A stretch of 64,000 nucleotides of DNA from Gluconobacter wancherniae NBRC 103581. GTDB lineage: Bacteria; Pseudomonadota; Alphaproteobacteria; Acetobacterales; Acetobacteraceae. Positions 5,186 to 64,000 of this stretch are shown here, piece by piece (the first letter of the stretch is position 1; each line of letters begins with the position of its first letter). The translations under genes and the position numbers were made by a program. The stretch spans positions 620,001 through 684,000 of the forward strand of contig NZ_BJUZ01000002.1 of the NCBI RefSeq assembly GCF_007988885.1. The letters are read 5' to 3'. The notes beneath the pieces are model-generated. The model saw only the letters and a program-made list of their open reading frames with translations. It was not told the DNA's origin and made no database searches.

Positions 5186-9502
<4,317 letters not shown>

Positions 9503-56737: not shown

Positions 56738-58262
56738 GCAGTGATACGCCCGTCATTGCAGGAGGCTGTGTCAGACCCAGAAGGGCGAGAATGGTTGGTG
56801 CAAGATCTGCGAGCCTGCCGTCATGGACCGTCTGGCCATCGGCGTGAGCCAGCAGGAATGGCACGGTATTGAGGGTATGTGCGGTGTGCACGCCGCCTGT
56901 CTGTGGATCGCGCATGGTTTCACAGTTTCCATGATCAGCCGTCACGAGCAGGATGCCACCGGCTTTGACGATCGCGTCGTTGATACGGCCCAGGCCCTGA
57001 TCAACAGCTTCACAGGCCTTGATGGCAGCAGGAAGAGAGCCAGTGTGCCCGACCATGTCCGGGTTTGCGAAGTTCAGTATGATCATGTCGAAACGGCCCG
57101 ATTCAATGCCTTCGACGGCTCGGTCGGTCAGTTCGGGAGCCGACATTTCCGGCTGAAGATCATATGTGGCCACTTTGGGTGACGCCACCATGATCCGTTC
57201 TTCTCCGGGTAGCTGCACTTCTCGGCCACCATTAAGGAAGTATGTGACATGAGGGTATTTTTCGGTTTCAGCCATACGAAGCTGTGTCATGCCCGCATGG
57301 GAAACGACTTCTCCGAGCAGATCCTCAAGCGGAATCTTCGGAAAAAGAACGGTCATGTATGGTGCCAGAACGTCCGAATAACGCGCCATGCCGCATGCAG
57401 CAGCAAAATTTATGAGACGACCGCGCTCGAAGCCCTCAAATTCCGGGATCAGAAGTGCATCCAGTAATTGACGAATGCGATCGGCGCGGAAATTGCATGA
57501 CAGGATACCGTCACCATCTTCCATGCCACCGTAGTTGCCCAGTACCGTAGGAATGATGAACTCGTCGCCTTTGTCTTCGGCATAGTGCGCCTTGATAACA
57601 TCAAGAGCGCTTTCAGAATGTGGGCCTACCCCGTCTCGCACGGCATAAAGTGCCAGACCCGTTCGTTCCCAACGGTGGTCGCGATCCATGGCGTAGTAGC
57701 GTCCACTGATCGTAGCAACCGTAACGGAAGCTGGCAGGTCGTGGAGCAGAGCTCCGATATAGTCTTCGCCTGAACGGGGAGGTGTGTCGCGGCCATCGCT
57801 GAAAATATGTAATGCAACGGGAACGCCGGAAGCGCTGACAATCTTTGCGAGCGCAAGGACATGATCCTGATGTGCATGTACACCGCCGGGCGATATGAGG
57901 CCCATCAGGTGACAGGTCCCACCTGATGCCTTGAGCGCATCAATAAAAGAGACAAGGACCGGATTCTCTGCAAGCGATCCATCGCGAACGCTGCGGGAAA
58001 TACGCGGCAAGTCCTGCATGACGACGCGGCCTGCGCCGATGTTTAGGTGTCCGACTTCGGAGTTGCCCATCTGACCTTCTGGCAGGCCGACATCTTCTCC
58101 GCAGGTTTTCAGGAAAGCATGCGGGCTGGCAGTCCAAAGGGCATCAAACGTGGGAGTGTTGGCCAGCCTTACGGCATTGTCAGATTCATCTTCACGCCAG
58201 CCAAATCCATCGAGGATGGCAAGCATAACGGGGCGGCGAGATGGAGAGGAAGGCTGGGACAC
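56724..58262 (-). CDS. gpmI: 2,3-bisphosphoglycerate-independent phosphoglycerate mutase
   Basis: This enzyme interconverts 3- and 2-phosphoglycerate using two metal ions and a phosphoserine. The 512-residue product starts at GTG 58262, with AGGAG eight bases upstream. The metal ligand Asp18 (LDGFG) and the catalytic Ser68 (GNSEVGHLNIGAGR) are present, as are TADHGNCE and the HTLNTVPF end. It is the first gene of the gpmI-envC-ctpA-yibQ-rppH operon. Confidence 0.97.
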   Translation of the reverse strand: MSQPSSPSRRPVMLAILDGFGWREDESDNAVRLANTPTFDALWTASPHAFLKTCGEDVGLPEGQMGNSEVGHLNIGAGRVVMQDLPRISRSVRDGSLAENPVLVSFIDALKASGGTCHLMGLISPGGVHAHQDHVLALAKIVSASGVPVALHIFSDGRDTPPRSGEDYIGALLHDLPASVTVATISGRYYAMDRDHRWERTGLALYAVRDGVGPHSESALDVIKAHYAEDKGDEFIIPTVLGNYGGMEDGDGILSCNFRADRIRQLLDALLIPEFEGFERGRLINFAAACGMARYSDVLAPYMTVLFPKIPLEDLLGEVVSHAGMTQLRMAETEKYPHVTYFLNGGREVQLPGEERIMVASPKVATYDLQPEMSAPELTDRAVEGIESGRFDMIILNFANPDMVGHTGSLPAAIKACEAVDQGLGRINDAIVKAGGILLVTADHGNCETMRDPQTGGVHTAHTLNTVPFLLAHADGQTVHDGRLADLAPTILALLGLTQPPAMTGVSLLESH

Positions 58263-58369
58263 TGGAAAGCTCCTGGTCGGGAGGCGGAAATAGCACTCCT
58301 CCTGTTATGCCACTTTTCCAGCGTCATGCGAACGCTCCCCAGCATAGATGCGCGAGAGCGTGATGAGTG

Positions 58370-60625
58370 TCAGTGTCGTGTCACCTTTCGTGTCCCATAA
58401 ATGATTACGGCTTGCAGTGTTTTCCATAGCCCTTTTTCGCGTAGGAACTTCCAGAATTTTTGCCGAAGAGTACGGTTTCGCAATGCCCCCGATAGCACCT
58501 GCTTGAAGAAGCGAGGCTTTAGCAGGTCGCTCCAGGTGAAGTAATCAGGGTTGAAAGGCGTGCTTTGATGCAGTTGTCCTTGCTGGAAAGCTCCCCTCAT
58601 TTCAAGAGACAGATGCAGCGCGTAGGCAAGGGCGCTGCCCATCTGTCCCAGAGTATTCTGAACATATGGTCGGATATTGCGGCTATGATCGCGCTCGACT
58701 TCACCGCTCAGAAGCATACCGCTGTCGCTTGCCCGATAAAGAAAGAGGCTTTCTGGAACAACCTGAAGATTTCCACCATGCAAAACCGCGGCGGCAAAAA
58801 ACTCCCAGTCCTCGTGGCCGATGCCGTAATCTTCAGTGAAGCCGCCAATCTTTTCAAACAAAGAACGACGTATGAGCGCGTTGGCGTCTCCGAAGCAGTT
58901 GTAGAATACCCCCAGGGACGGACAGGCTCCCAGTGGAAGCCAGCGGTATTCTGCCTTTTCCTTCTCATGGGCTGAAATGTCGCGGTGATAAATATCAAAT
59001 GGGCAAGTTAGTATATCGGCATCAACCTGACGTGCACAGCGAGCGTATGTTTCTAACTCATGTGGAAGAGCGATATTGTCATCATCCATGAACATCAGGT
59101 ATTCGCCTGTCGCGTGACTGGCAGCGAGATTTCTGGCAGCTCCAAGATATCGGTTCGTAGAGCGGATAAATTTCCACTCCAGTTCTTCATAATGTTTTGA
59201 TAACCGATTGAGGCATTCTTTACTTGATTGTTTTACACTTCCGTCGTCCACAACGATGACTTCGAAGTTTTTGTAGGATTGCTGAAAAAGAGAATTGAGA
59301 GCTTCACCAAGCAGGTGCGGACGCTCGTAATGTGTGAGGCACACGCTAATGCGTGGCAATTCGGCTTTGGATAAGGCTTCAGGAGCGCTTAAATCAATCT
59401 TCTGGATCAGCTCAGACCATTTTTTTGCTATATCGTCGGGGCTAAACGAGAGCTTTGCGGGCTTGAAAGAAAAGCGCGTTTCAAAGCATTTTGTGAGGCA
59501 TTCCGCCAAGGACTGTGGTTGTGGCTCAAACAGGACTCTGCTTTGATCTTGGTGAGCAATCAGTTCGGGAATGCCACCAATATTGGATGCGATGAATGCC
59601 GTTTCTTGTAATAAACACTCCATTACGGAATACGGTGAATTTTCTGATAGCGAGGCAATGACCGCCAAGCGACCAGGCTGCGACAGATATGTATTTGCTT
59701 GAGTGCGATCCATATTCGTAATTATACGAATCTCGACCGGCCAATTATTATTGGTTTTTTTCTCTATTAGCTTCTTAAATGCTAGCTCGTGAGAACTTTT
59801 CCCGAGGAATGTGACTTGACGGATATTGGTCCATGTTGCTGGGTCAAGGCGATCCAGAGCTTTGCAGAGGAGTGTTAAGCCTTTACGTTCTTCGAGGCGC
59901 CCAAAAAAGACAATTTCGTTAAGAGCGGTTGGAAATTTTCTAGACCCAATCGCGCTTTTCAGTCCGGCCGGTGCACAATTAGGGAGAGCTTCATAGGTCT
60001 CTGGAAGAACCCAGTTTCTTCGCTTCATCCAGTTGATAAGATAGACGCTTGGGCTGACCATGTGATCAGCTAACGCGATACATTGCCGCTCAAGAAACTC
60101 GGTTTCCAGGTCTTCCGGGCTACTGGGGAGCTTGTTGTTGCCTTCCTGGGCCCAGACGCTCGGACTATGCGTAACAACAATAAATGCTGTGTTTTGGAAA
60201 TGTAGACCCATTTTGCGTGCTAGTAGCGCGTAGTAAGTTTCTCCGCGCCATTCTGGATAATAAATGACATCAAAAATCTCGTTGCAGCTTTTTAGCCATT
60301 CATAAACTAGCCAAGAGTTTATGCGCGGCATCGGAGCTGTGAGAGAAGGGCCGTCATTATCCGGGCGGGGAATGAAACGAATGCCATCTCTTTTGTATTG
60401 GCGCACCCAACCATCCATTGTGCCCTGCTCAATGTATGTACCGAGGGTATACAAGATAGTTACATCATGCCCTTGGCTCTTCAAGGCTCGTGCAAGTGCT
60501 GTAAAAGCCGTTCCAATGCCGCCGTTTCGGACTGGGCCTTCGATATCAGGACTTATGAGAAGGACGCGTCTTTTGTCTGTAATTTCTGCGTGCAGCGCGG
60601 ACGATAGCGGGGCGATTGACGTCAT
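58370..60625 (-). CDS. Glycosyltransferase GT4-GT2 fusion
   Basis: 751 residues with two catalytic units. Residues about 20-405 are a GT-B (GT4) enzyme: RVLLISPDIEGPVRNGGIGTA, FFGRLEERKGL, and the EX7E pair Glu328/Glu336 in SENSPYSVMEC. Residues about 424-635 are a GT-A (GT2) enzyme: ISVCLTHYERP, VVDDGS, and the metal motif DDD at 514-516. A C-terminal helical tail follows. It may add two successive sugars to a surface glycan. Donor and acceptor are unknown. The Shine-Dalgarno is poor. Confidence 0.88.
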   Translation of the reverse strand: MTSIAPLSSALHAEITDKRRVLLISPDIEGPVRNGGIGTAFTALARALKSQGHDVTILYTLGTYIEQGTMDGWVRQYKRDGIRFIPRPDNDGPSLTAPMPRINSWLVYEWLKSCNEIFDVIYYPEWRGETYYALLARKMGLHFQNTAFIVVTHSPSVWAQEGNNKLPSSPEDLETEFLERQCIALADHMVSPSVYLINWMKRRNWVLPETYEALPNCAPAGLKSAIGSRKFPTALNEIVFFGRLEERKGLTLLCKALDRLDPATWTNIRQVTFLGKSSHELAFKKLIEKKTNNNWPVEIRIITNMDRTQANTYLSQPGRLAVIASLSENSPYSVMECLLQETAFIASNIGGIPELIAHQDQSRVLFEPQPQSLAECLTKCFETRFSFKPAKLSFSPDDIAKKWSELIQKIDLSAPEALSKAELPRISVCLTHYERPHLLGEALNSLFQQSYKNFEVIVVDDGSVKQSSKECLNRLSKHYEELEWKFIRSTNRYLGAARNLAASHATGEYLMFMDDDNIALPHELETYARCARQVDADILTCPFDIYHRDISAHEKEKAEYRWLPLGACPSLGVFYNCFGDANALIRRSLFEKIGGFTEDYGIGHEDWEFFAAAVLHGGNLQVVPESLFLYRASDSGMLLSGEVERDHSRNIRPYVQNTLGQMGSALAYALHLSLEMRGAFQQGQLHQSTPFNPDYFTWSDLLKPRFFKQVLSGALRNRTLRQKFWKFLREKGLWKTLQAVIIYGTRKVTRH

Positions 60626-60806
60626 TTAAAGCAGGTCCAGAGTTACAGAGTGCACAGATGTGCGTGAAGCCGAGGTGCTACAGCGCGTTAGCTGGTTACT
60701 CTTTTTAATAGTCCTATAACTTAGTGCAATACGGTCAGAAGAGAATATGAATCTCTAAGAAGTGGGTAATGGGCGATATTGGCAAGGAGCCGGGGGCGAG
60801 GAGGTT
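60626..60806. other. Gap between the GT fusion and GT2 genes, with an 11-base direct repeat
   Basis: No gene is supported. AGCCGGGGGCG occurs at 60788-60798 and again at 60819-60829, the second copy inside the 3' end of the GT2 gene. No terminator is obvious; a promoter for the fusion gene (minus strand) may lie in the AT-rich part around 60690-60740. Confidence 0.4.
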
Positions 60807-62252
60807 TTACTCTCTGGAAGCCGGGGGCGTGCCATTAGATAGGAGAATGCGCATAGTCATTTTTATTTCTTCCTGTTGTTTAAGAGTTTCGTGCGATGTT
60901 GATCTGAGCGCATTTAAAAATTCAAGTTCTCGAAGTTTTTCATGGTCTTTGAGATTCCTTAAAGAATAATAAAAGCATTGATTGTTAAATATTATATGAA
61001 ATTTTTCATAAATATTATATGAAAATTCTGCGGGGAAAAAGTGTAATTTTGTGGTTGTTGATTGATTTTGAAGGATTTTAATTATTATAATATCTCGATC
61101 TTTATAATCTATTCCTGGTGTTAGGCTTTCGAAATTAATGATGGTTATGCCGGGATAATACTTACGAATTTTTTCAACGTTTAATTCATCCTCAAGTGTA
61201 AAAAAAGCGACTTTTGTGCTCTGATTAGTTTGAAAAAAAACGTCGAAAAAATCATAAGGAAAATTAATGCATGATAAGAAAAAAATGTCATTAAAATTTT
61301 TATTGTTTTTGATGCGGCAAATTTTAGCATAAGCATGCCCAGTTATTCCGGTGGTAGCATTGTTAAATGCACCAGTACTATAATGATAAAAATTATAAGG
61401 AAGAATAGCAGGGTCTATACTGTTTGCACGTCCCATCAATTCCATTTGGAAAGAATTATTTAGTACTTCTCTTCCTATTCCTGTTGGTAAAGAAGCTATT
61501 TTTCTAGTAATTTCATATTCTCTAAGAAAAATTTTATAGTCAAAAAAAGCTGATTTTGGAATTTGTTTAGTCGTTTTTTCTATGGTCTGTCGGAAGAGGC
61601 TATGCGTGCGAACCCGATAATACCATGCTGTTTCATCGACTGCTTGGAAACGATAACCTGATGCGAGTGCTTCGGTGGCTATAAGCCAGTCTTCGAATGC
61701 ATAACCGGACTGGAACGGTATATCAAAATATGGATTATTTTCAAAAAAGCTGCGATGAGAGAATAGGCGTGCATTATATAAGTTCTGGCAAACCATATCG
61801 CCGATATTGATAAGATCTGAAGAAAAATACTCAACAATGAAGTAGGAAAGATCAAACCCAAATTTAAAGCGTGGGGTGAAAATTGTTTTAATTGGTGAAT
61901 TTATAGCTGAACAATATAATTTTCTTAAAATTGAAAATGAAATTAAATCATCTGCATCCAATATGAATATATAATCTCCTTTGCTCTGTATTATGCCATG
62001 GTTTCTACTAAGGCTTACGGATTGATAATCTACTTCTATGATTTGAATTACGTCAACGCCGTTTAATTTTTTTTGTTTTATAATATTTCGAGTCTTCCCT
62101 TCGGAACTATCAAACACGAAGACGCATTCTACGGATAATCCCGCGTGGCAGGCATCAGTAGCTGCTTCGGAGATAGAAAGAAGGGTTCGCGGCAAGTACT
62201 GCCATTCATTATGAATGGTGACGATGACGCTGATATCGGGAGTGGAGGTCAT
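60807..62252 (-). CDS. GT2-family glycosyltransferase with extra C-terminal domain
   Basis: 481 residues. The GT-A domain (about 5-220) has ISVIVTIHNEWQYLPRTL and the metal motif DAD at 99-101. The C-terminal part (about 303-425) looks related to a non-catalytic domain in the neighbouring GT4 protein. The gene is far more AT-rich than its surroundings: 19 G+C in 60 bases at 61021-61080 and 13 in 60 at 61261-61320. That suggests transfer from an AT-rich source. Its start overlaps the upstream GT4 stop by four bases. Substrate unknown. Confidence 0.85.
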   Translation of the reverse strand: MTSTPDISVIVTIHNEWQYLPRTLLSISEAATDACHAGLSVECVFVFDSSEGKTRNIIKQKKLNGVDVIQIIEVDYQSVSLSRNHGIIQSKGDYIFILDADDLISFSILRKLYCSAINSPIKTIFTPRFKFGFDLSYFIVEYFSSDLINIGDMVCQNLYNARLFSHRSFFENNPYFDIPFQSGYAFEDWLIATEALASGYRFQAVDETAWYYRVRTHSLFRQTIEKTTKQIPKSAFFDYKIFLREYEITRKIASLPTGIGREVLNNSFQMELMGRANSIDPAILPYNFYHYSTGAFNNATTGITGHAYAKICRIKNNKNFNDIFFLSCINFPYDFFDVFFQTNQSTKVAFFTLEDELNVEKIRKYYPGITIINFESLTPGIDYKDRDIIIIKILQNQSTTTKLHFFPAEFSYNIYEKFHIIFNNQCFYYSLRNLKDHEKLRELEFLNALRSTSHETLKQQEEIKMTMRILLSNGTPPASRE

Positions 62253-64000
62253 TGGTGAATTGGCATTTTATCTGCGAATAGGAAATTTATCTGTTGCTGG
62301 TAATAACTGGGGGCGTGCTGTTTTTCCAGAAGTATCTGTGCCTCTTTGCAGAGATTAAGGCGTAGTTTTTTGTCTTTGAGAAGGATATTTATGGCTTGTA
62401 TGTATAGTTCTGCGTCTTCGTCGTCCTGTCCTGAGCAGTCGAGAAGCATTCCAGTGTGGCTGTCTTTTACAAATTCACTCACGCCACCGACGTTTGGGGC
62501 AATCAGTGGTATTCCTGATGCGGCTGCTTCTAGCAATACATTTGGTAGCCCATCGAAACTGCTCGTGTAGAGAAAACAAAAGCTGTGCGTAGCATCTAAT
62601 TTCTGGAAATTTTGGAATCCACCATGAAATTTAATATTTGGTTCCGAGACGATTTCCTCACGTAGGCCATCATTATCCATAATGAAATTTCCGTACACAT
62701 CGATATACATGTCAGGGAGATATTTTTGTAGAAGTCGTGCAATTTTCAATAATAGCGATGGACGCTTCTGTTGATCTATTCTCGAGGCCCATATAATGCG
62801 TCGAGATTTCCCAGATGCTTTTATTTCTTTGTGCGTGACTTGTTTGGTAGTAGGCATGCGGGCGTAAAGTACCTGCCATTGTTCAGGAGATGCCCCAATG
62901 CGCTGCTGATCGAAGGCAGCAATATGAGCATTATCGCAGATCAGGGTCTGGATGTTCGGAATTGCAGTGGAAATAAAAGCAAACTGCCCAGCATCAATGA
63001 AGGTTCGGCCACCATGCTCAATCCTTCCATCGCAGAACCGGTATACAATCGGAGACATGTGTTTCAGAAGGTCGCCGAAGCGCAGAAAAAAGCGTTCGGA
63101 AAAGATGCTGCCTTTGATATGAAGGCGCCCATGAGGCGCCATATTTTGTATTATGCGGAGTGTCAGGATCTGCCGTTGATCTTCGGTGAAGTCAGGGAAG
63201 CGGTTGCATAAATCGACATGATTGGCACCAGTAGGTAAGCGCTCCATCCAAGCATATTTGGTGAAGAATTCCCCGAAAAGCACGAGAGTTTTGCAGCGTG
63301 GGTTCAGGGTGTGAAGGCTATTTATAACATCAAGAATGTATTTATCGGCTCCTCCTGTTGTCAGGAATGGGAGGAGGAAGACTTCGTCGTATGAGCTGTT
63401 GTTCAGCTCAGAACAAAGTTCAGCATAAGCACGACCGATCACAGGGGCAGGCTCATTTTCCGTTTTGACTGGAAGGTCAATTATCAGTTCTGGCACGACG
63501 AGTTGGGTAATGGCCTGAGCTGGGGGCAAAATTTTATAAAGGGTATTTTGAGGTAGACTATGTAGCGGCTGTGGGCCTGAGGTGTGTGAATGCGCGGTAG
63601 GATCTTGGGTAACGAGCAGTCGACGATAAAACTCTGGACGCAAAAGCAGAGAGTCCGGGAGAGGGGGAAAGCCAGACAGGTTCGACGAGGCGGCATGTTC
63701 AAAAATAGCCGTTTCGTTGCATCTCTCGACTATGCTTCCAACGGCGATCGCATCCGCCAGCATTCGTGCACTGTCGAAAGACGGCAGGCCACCAGCTGCC
63801 ATAATTTTGGTCATTAAGCACGATTGACAGCTGAATACGGGCGGAAACGGTATATTTTCTACCAATACGTACGGTGAAATATTTTGCAGCTCGGGTATGC
63901 GTAATATCTCTGCTTCCAAGCCGTACTTTATTAGAAATTCTGGAACGAGCAGCGTATCTTGAGGCTTTTGTTGTAGAGTAACGAAAATTTCTCGTAAGTA
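62249..64000 (-). CDS. GT4-family glycosyltransferase, 5' end outside the window
   Basis: The frame is open to the last base of the window, so the start is not seen; a TTG at 63919 is internal. At least 583 residues are visible. The C-terminal half is a GT-B donor-binding domain (RRIIWASRIDQQKRPSLLL; SSFDGLPNVLLEAAASG). Before it, an accessory domain with GRAYAELCSELNN and LTTGGADKYILDVINSL lies at about 63065-63439. The sequence upstream of that may belong to another transferase domain. It is the most upstream visible gene of this glycan locus. Confidence 0.85.
   Translation of the reverse strand, partial: YLREIFVTLQQKPQDTLLVPEFLIKYGLEAEILRIPELQNISPYVLVENIPFPPVFSCQSCLMTKIMAAGGLPSFDSARMLADAIAVGSIVERCNETAIFEHAASSNLSGFPPLPDSLLLRPEFYRRLLVTQDPTAHSHTSGPQPLHSLPQNTLYKILPPAQAITQLVVPELIIDLPVKTENEPAPVIGRAYAELCSELNNSSYDEVFLLPFLTTGGADKYILDVINSLHTLNPRCKTLVLFGEFFTKYAWMERLPTGANHVDLCNRFPDFTEDQRQILTLRIIQNMAPHGRLHIKGSIFSERFFLRFGDLLKHMSPIVYRFCDGRIEHGGRTFIDAGQFAFISTAIPNIQTLICDNAHIAAFDQQRIGASPEQWQVLYARMPTTKQVTHKEIKASGKSRRIIWASRIDQQKRPSLLLKIARLLQKYLPDMYIDVYGNFIMDNDGLREEIVSEPNIKFHGGFQNFQKLDATHSFCFLYTSSFDGLPNVLLEAAASGIPLIAPNVGGVSEFVKDSHTGMLLDCSGQDDEDAELYIQAINILLKDKKLRLNLCKEAQILLEKQHAPSYYQQQINFLFADKMPIHQ

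Follow-up and report, generated by a model that had tools for sequence, protein, structure and literature searches.

Analysis of a stretch of 64,000 nucleotides (nt) of Gluconobacter wancherniae NBRC 103581 (NZ_BJUZ01000002.1, positions 620,001-684,000, forward strand; hereafter the window) revealed two neighbouring glycosyltransferase genes that probably belong to one family of GT2-GT4 fusion proteins, have lost opposite halves of it and act as a pair. The two genes encode a GT2 protein of 481 amino acids (GT2p) and a GT4 protein of 699 amino acids (GT4p) and lie in a cassette with a third glycosyltransferase gene. Judged by its motifs, GT2p reads as a functional GT2 enzyme trailed by a degenerate GT4 N-terminal domain, and GT4p as a functional GT4 enzyme preceded by a degenerate GT2 domain. 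The GT4p gene runs off the window, having a TTG start at window-equivalent position 64348, 348 bases outside, and its 699 codons were read from the flanking genome sequence. The features of the pair are:

60807..62252, minus strand: GT2p gene, an open reading frame (ORF) of 481 amino acids with a putatively live GT2 domain, a linker, a vestigial GT4 N-terminal half and a helical tail
61503..62252, minus strand: GT2 (GT-A) domain of GT2p, residues 1-250, with the motifs DADD, EDW and YYR present
61947..61958, minus strand: DADD motif of GT2p, residues 99-102, from alignments
61686..61694, minus strand: EDW motif of GT2p, residues 187-189, from alignments
60963..61346, minus strand: vestigial GT4 N-terminal Rossmann half in GT2p, residues 303-430, from the profile match and open frame
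60810..60962, minus strand: helical tail of GT2p, residues 431-481, from the AF2 model, with pLDDT <50 from residue 453
62249..64000, minus strand: in-window part of GT4p, residues 117-699; the whole gene is L003:4249-6348
63563..64000, minus strand: portion of the decayed GT2 domain of GT4p that falls inside the window (whole domain at about residues 19-262), from motifs and alignments
63065..63439, minus strand: GT4 N-domain segment of GT4p, residues 304-428, flagged by the initial annotation, from pairwise alignment
63338..63361, minus strand: glycine loop TTGGADKY of GT4p, residues 330-337, from alignments; TTGGAD is without counterpart in GT2p
62339..62836, minus strand: GT4 C-terminal Rossmann domain of GT4p, residues 505-670 (PF00534), with the motifs SRxxxQKRP, GLPNVLLEA and VGG kept
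62249..62252, minus strand: 4-base ATGA overlap of the GT4p stop and GT2p start, from the sequence

Opposite defects in two neighbouring proteins

Residues with catalytic roles were scored on the profile alignment, six for GT2 (DxDD, ED and FYR) and six for GT4 (the GG loop, R, K, G and E). GT2p has 6/6 of the GT2 residues and 0/6 of the GT4 residues, and GT4p has 1/6 and 6/6, respectively. The changes at the GT2 site of GT4p include DSSIFIS for DADDLVS, the DSS-for-DxDD site lying outside the window, PSFDSA for YAYEDW, and deletion of the SLGxxRN loop. GT2p has lost the glycine loop together with the entire GT4 C-domain; a search of all six frames of 60560-61100 showed no remnant of that domain (best E value (E) 0.48).

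Pfam models divided the two proteins in the same way. GT2p matched PF00535 with 57.9 bits (cut-off 23.3), placing it in the GT2 family, and no Pfam GT4 model matched it at E 1 or better, the C-domain with R/K and E being missing. GT4p matched PF00534 with 60.2 bits (cut-off 26.4) and PF13692 with 53.7 bits (cut-off 27), placing it in the GT4 family, and PF00535 did not match it at E 1 or better, leaving it without the combination of PF00535 and DxDD/ED. Neither protein holds both catalytic halves intact.

Likeness of the two proteins beyond the flagged segments

The initial annotation described a duplicated accessory domain shared by the two neighbours. Its segments were correctly placed, nt 61346-60978 corresponding to GT2p residues 303-425 and nt 63439-63065 to GT4p residues 304-428, and they are homologous: 25 of 120 aligned columns are identical, and the alignment score of 84, compared with a shuffle mean of 27.4 (standard deviation 4.8; Z score (Z) 11.8), was reached by 0/2000 shuffles. 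Control comparisons of GT2p residues 251-430 with the first 400 residues of the third glycosyltransferase gene (Z -0.4) and with the GT4p C-domain (Z -0.8) gave only noise. The glycine loop is missing from the GT2p copy, as had been claimed, the six absent residues falling on TTGGAD. The profile comparison agreed, since GT2p residues 251-481 alone matched the GT4 N-domain of 39 intact fusions at E 1.3e-19, compared with E 4.7 for the best of 400 shuffled sequences.

Although the likeness of the two segments thus stands, the description of the domain as accessory does not, because the domain is the N-terminal Rossmann half of a GT4 enzyme and because the likeness spans nearly all of GT2p. In a search of its own genome, GT2p aligned over residues 3-421 with full GT4p (E 3.2e-9); the direct likeness of the two is about 20% identity (E 4e-8), their GT2 domains are alike (Z 13.4), and a profile of the N-terminal part that included GT2p and excluded GT4p matched GT4p at positions 4-433 (E 1.6e-46). 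At the level of sequence, the two proteins appear alike almost from their first residues. An independent adaptor domain added to two unrelated glycosyltransferases could explain why the flagged segments by themselves are alike, but it is scarcely credible given that the likeness continues through the GT2 domain and linker and that in relatives the segment forms the N-terminal half of the GT4 part. The suggestion that the GT2 gene is possibly what remains of a GT2-GT4 fusion gained support, GT2p being co-linear with the first 438-504 residues of fusions of about 700 amino acids. That account is incomplete, however, because GT4p belongs to the same family and has the opposite defect.

A family of GT2-GT4 fusions

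A search of 397 Acetobacteraceae genomes with full GT4p revealed nine full-length relatives of 691-761 amino acids in nine genomes, with 23-28% identity to GT4p; none of the nine came from Gluconobacter, a genus of which the sample held part, and one shares its whole protein sequence with a fusion of Acetobacter cerevisiae LMG 1625. GT2p aligned, from residues 1-6 to residues 417-480, with the six best of these nine at 25-29% identity (E 9e-47 to 2e-38), and the weakest of the nine matched it at E 1.4e-20. The six matches are thus much stronger than that of GT2p to GT4p (E 4e-8). Among the six is L048, which itself has a decayed GT4 half. A fusion profile of 703 positions, built from seven Acetobacteraceae fusions and neither window protein, gave co-linear matches to both GT2p (positions 5-441, E 6.3e-78) and GT4p (positions 5-691, E 1.2e-117).

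A scan of 84,980 species genomes, which combined an alignment of the N-terminal part with one GT2-motif pattern (Y/F-A-Y/F-E-D-W/Y...) and was blind to members without that motif, yielded 52 loci, by their titles mostly Proteobacteria. The 89 profile matches of at least 100 bits reduced to 80 distinct ones; the tree set comprised 53 rows and the motif count 51, a coverage filter having dropped a fragment from Acetobacter estunensis (L050/L103) and a late-start ORF (L072). All 12 motif residues are present in 39/49 other fusions having both regions. One half has decayed in 7/49 (GT4 in L048, L057, L061, L067 and L085; GT2 in L041 and L092), a figure that is not a population rate, because the scan required the GT2 motif and so under-counted GT2-dead members, including those like GT4p. 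Three further fusions were borderline (L058, L065 and L078). At none of the other loci examined was there an adjacent pair with opposite defects, which was seen here alone.

In six loci (L047, L049 and L051-L054), the GT2 and GT4 units of the family are separate neighbouring genes, in either order, suggesting that the two activities go together. Proteins like GT2p were found in 1/385 Alphaproteobacteria genomes at E 1e-40, namely in its own genome, in a search that scored at most four candidates per genome and is likely to have missed some. Plasmid records contained generic GT2 matches to GT2p in eight cases, none covering 80%, and a 66-base match inside the third cassette gene in 19 enterobacterial plasmids, 17 of them of Klebsiella.

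Several family members were of interest in their own right. One locus (L056:8968-13292) carries two GT2-GT4 fusions in tandem, 2 bases apart, which have all scored motif residues and are closely related to each other. The fusion at L050:7893-9206 (identical in protein to L103, A. estunensis LMG 1626) looks broken, through an assembly break or as a pseudogene, with its start in another frame and a C-terminal part on another contig, and the copy of strain AV380 (L093) is intact at 689 amino acids. A viral contig, IMGVR_UViG_3300012940_000430 (L159:4959-8199), carries a complete fusion with 48% identity over 689 amino acids to the Chelatococcus one; it overlaps a gene for a methyltransferase, a pairing also present in the bacterial locus L068. 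A tail-protein gene precedes the fusion, and further along lies a gene with a match to a family of DNA repair exonucleases. The contig possibly represents a phage that alters the surface sugars of its host.

State of the dead halves

The reading frame and predicted structure of GT2p bear on whether its dead half is retained or simply decaying. Among window ORFs of at least 150 amino acids, GT2p is the most AT-rich (GC 34% and GC at third codon positions (GC3) 29%, compared with 54.5% GC for the window), and its dead half is the most AT-rich part of the gene (GC 0.289). This composition and the long branch of GT2p in trees are what plain decay would produce, with dead halves that do nothing and GT2p on its way to becoming a pseudogene. 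We nevertheless consider such decay improbable, since the GT2 motif residues of GT2p are complete and its dead half has stayed open: the DNA of residues 251-430 is free of stops over 180 codons, where mononucleotide shuffles average 13.7 stops and Markov draws 11.7, and 0/20000 of either were stop-free. The same DNA retains a codon-position bias in GC (0.35/0.31/0.21). No relative close enough for a dN/dS comparison was found.

The AF2 model of GT2p (mean pLDDT 86.6, pTM 0.86) predicts a GT-A domain, a helical linker and, at residues 303-430, a compact five-strand Rossmann half, with pLDDT block means of 82-92 for residues 301-430. VIA-align matches of the GT-A domain to solved glycosyltransferases included 6p61_C (Z 20.1, root mean square deviation (rmsd) 2.4, 185 residues aligned) and 9omm_A, WrtF (Z 19.8, rmsd 2.8, 222 aligned); this list was filled by the GT-A domain (residues 3-318), the part that the fold evidence covers. 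The in-window part of GT4p was modelled with a mean pLDDT of 86.7, and the best Foldseek matches of the model were GT4-type enzymes (top E 9.2e-18, BshA).

Origin of the pair

How the two genes came to lie side by side was less clear from the trees. The places of GT2p and GT4p in trees from each live half disagree, with weak to moderate support, and both proteins form long branches in trees using their dead parts. In-place duplication of one intact fusion gene, after which the tandem copies lost opposite halves (subfunctionalisation), is an explanation that we advance tentatively. It is consistent with the adjacency of the two genes on the same strand, with their co-linear homology, and with the existence of intact tandem duplicates in the relative L056, and a single clade of GT2p and GT4p was not rejected (p-AU 0.387). 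In addition, the homologous stretch GHAYAKIC/GRAYAELC coincides with a direct DNA repeat (L003:3318-3340 and 5414-5436, 83%). The other six direct-repeat families, however, are out of register with the protein alignment, as reckoned by hand, and were put down to chance; with 1/7 families in register, the repeats were rejected as proof of tandem duplication. Also weighing against duplication is the identity of about 20% between GT2p and GT4p, which is below that of GT2p to its six best fusions (25-29%) or of GT4p to the nine fusions (23-28%). Moreover, GT2p groups with a truncated fusion of Microvirga pudoricolor (L057; bootstrap 95, SH-aLRT 79, and SH-aLRT 99 on columns 1-450), and GT4p, by its GT4 half, groups weakly with an Asticcacaulis fusion (SH-aLRT 85).

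These groupings would be expected if two separately decayed members had been united in one cassette, GT2p coming from an older lineage of GT2 proteins with a GT4 vestige that it shares with Microvirga. Such an assembly is possible, and we hold it, too, short of a preference. The pairing of GT2p with L057 recurred between trees (SH-aLRT 89 in one, and the bootstrap of 95 with SH-aLRT 79 in another), L057 likewise has neither the GT4 C-domain nor the motifs, a separate GT4 gene comes after it, and the cassette was seen in one species of the genus. On the other hand, GT2p combines a long branch with an odd composition, and the tree placement of such rows is unsure; furthermore, only two members of the truncated lineage are known, and their matches end at different points of the profile (441 and 497).

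Proposed joint function

Whichever way the pair arose, most likely its two members share the task that the fusion performs by itself in the synthesis of a surface glycan. GT4p and GT2p would be expressed as one unit, as the 4-base overlap suggests, and together would carry out the two transferase steps for which relatives use a single fused protein. Both steps would probably add residues of one surface polysaccharide, to judge from the gene context of relatives. That the two steps serve one glycan is suggested because GT2 and GT4 units of the family occur fused, as neighbours, or as overlapping half-dead genes. In the Microvirga locus, genes for an ABC-2 permease and an ABC ATPase accompany one for a nucleotidyl transferase, a set suggestive of ABC-dependent export of a surface polysaccharide by that relative; no exporter gene is among the three genes of the window cassette.

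The dead halves may be kept as folded parts, most likely holding the two proteins together or holding the acceptor, and we infer a physical complex of GT2p and GT4p. The proposal in the initial annotation that the shared segment is a module for partner or acceptor binding is possible in the same sense. A more specific arrangement seems rather doubtful, namely an obligate heterodimer whose dead domains each sit on the live domain of the other protein, at the position of the live partner in fused relatives.

A second locus resembles the window in part. In L107 (806-6288), titled as a Melainabacteria metagenome-assembled genome, two GT2 proteins of 529 and 551 amino acids overlap each other and an intact fusion of 757 amino acids. 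Their C-terminal parts are alike (Z 15.8) and are similar to the GT4 N-domain of the fusion (Z 15.6 and 10.2), but not to its C-domain (Z 1.4 and -0.5), and jointly they matched the GT4 N-domain profile with an hhalign probability of 78% (E 1.9e-5). On this comparison of sequences, a decayed GT4 N-half behind a GT2 domain and beside a GT4-competent relative appears in two loci, the window and L107, although, unlike in the window, the partner in L107 keeps both halves. On the doubtful reading as a heterodimer, a split bifunctional glycosyltransferase made of two interlocking half-dead proteins would possibly be a recurrent design.

Several observations weigh against the view that GT2p and GT4p are a functional pair from one fusion family. 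The family profile alone misses the C-terminal parts of L107 (E 0.26 for one, none at E 1 for the other), and these parts show no likeness to the C-terminal part of GT2p (Z -0.5 and 0.5). The trees join GT2p with the truncated Microvirga protein, at the bootstrap of 95 and SH-aLRT of 79 given above, and not with GT4p. The third cassette gene has GT4 and GT2 domains detectable by Pfam and could supply either lost step. GT2p may also be an ageing gene, by its low GC (34%, GC3 29%, in a window of 54.5% GC). In addition, there are half-dead single fusions for which no other family glycosyltransferase was found nearby (L041 and L092, and L048 and L067 on short contigs), so that a dead half does not necessarily imply a partner. 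Among the 45/51 non-window fusions that had enough flank, another GT4 gene lies near 3/3 GT4-dead fusions compared with 18/42 others, a non-significant difference (p 0.094).

Genomic site and distribution in the genus

The remaining features of the cassette are:

58370..60625, minus strand: third cassette gene, 751 amino acids, GT4 then GT2, both domains above the Pfam cut-off
58263..58369, no strand: gpmI-side edge of the cassette, from blastn of genus mates; the other edge is near window-equivalent 64400

The three glycosyltransferase genes sit between gpmI and an ORF of 63 amino acids, which may be CsbD-like, followed by msrB and upp (gpmI, msrB and upp by Pfam). The domain order of the third gene, GT4-GT2, is the reverse of that of the GT2-GT4 fusions. 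Its best match seen, with 32% identity over 650 amino acids, belongs to locus L039, which also carries an intact GT2-GT4 fusion whose protein is identical to that of Neoroseomonas alkaliterrae (L073).

Comparison of this site across 20 of 25 genus mates (all except G001, G003, G007, G008 and G019) showed an upp-envC gap of 0.6-2.4 kb in 20/20, compared with 8.4 kb here, and no ORF matching any of the three cassette genes at the site in 20/20; in one mate (G015), gpmI was also not found there. By blastn against 12 mates, likeness on the gpmI side stops at 58236-58252 in the 11 having a match there, with one extra 38-base match in L152 (58305-58342); on the msrB side it begins anew at 64404-64421 in 10 mates and at 64794 in two. 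No GT2p orthologue was found in 25 other Gluconobacter species, 5/25 giving weak matches at E 7.5e-6 or worse; this genus-wide search used GT2p as the query, and GT4p served as the query for the family sample, where the genus was represented in part. Gain of the cassette here needs fewer events than loss in the other species.

In 2/3 Acetobacter loci compared, upp is close to the fusion, and 3/3 contain a distant relative (21-22% identity) of the third cassette gene, for which reason such genes may long have been at home at this site. In one of these (L045), genes for UDP-galactopyranose mutase and a pyruvyl transferase flank the fusion. Repeat and tRNA scans gave no usable insertion mark, with 0 tRNA genes, and scans of the cassette for consensus promoters and terminators were no richer than shuffles (7 versus a mean of 11.4, and 6 versus 6.9, respectively). 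A possible prophage at 12-26 kb of the window was dropped, six of its ORFs being without a PHROGs match.

Comparison with other systems

The closest intact counterparts are the bimodular GT2-GT4 glycosyltransferases of Proteobacteria, such as the fusion of Acetobacter cerevisiae LMG 1625 (L084:8986-11097, identical in protein to L045:7962-10073), which share domain order and linker with the window pair and are co-linear with both of its proteins. The L045 locus of this type, like the window, lies near upp and near a GT4-GT2 gene with 22% identity to the third cassette gene. In contrast to the window, with its two proteins and opposite halves dead, the A. cerevisiae fusion is one protein with both halves intact. 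The truncated fusion of M. pudoricolor (L057:8986-10785, 599 amino acids) resembles GT2p in that the GT2 motifs are kept, the GT4 N-half is without its motif and there is no match to the GT4 C-domain, and it is the row nearest to GT2p in the trees. It differs from GT2p in having an ordinary GT4 gene as its downstream neighbour and in sitting behind an ABC-transporter pair.

Multi-domain glycosyltransferases build bacterial surface sugars, and the combination of a live transferase with a catalytically dead or partly dead relative, as in the window pair, is familiar from GtfA-GtfB of the accessory Sec system, EXT1-EXT2 and ChSy-ChPF. By contrast with the window pair, these systems are not known to combine two proteins that each join a live domain of one kind to a dead domain of the other. 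In the coiled-coil ruler proteins of ABC-dependent O-antigens, a long coiled coil separates the polymerase module from the terminator module; the tail of GT2p is predicted as helix, at the low pLDDT noted above. As judged by titles and the openings of abstracts, and with the search terms used, no literature on complementary half-dead glycosyltransferase pairs was found.

Another parallel is offered by the O-antigen polymerases of Klebsiella pneumoniae O4 and O7 and Escherichia coli O9, whose modules, in the part of the published account considered here, are variably distributed among proteins with one or several modules, and these assemble into complexes via protein-protein contact (PMC11231755). 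The likeness to these polymerases is one of organisation; as far as that part of the account goes, their modules are placed apart and are not homologous pairs with opposite dead halves (PMC11231755). The same part calls it unclear what decides whether glycosyltransferase modules are fused or separate (PMC11231755). Relatives that have the intact plan, one dead half, or separate genes, set beside a pair with opposite defects, make the role of a dead half directly testable. In sum, modular glycosyltransferases and dead partner domains are of a known kind, and what appears new here is their occurrence as an adjacent pair with opposite dead halves.

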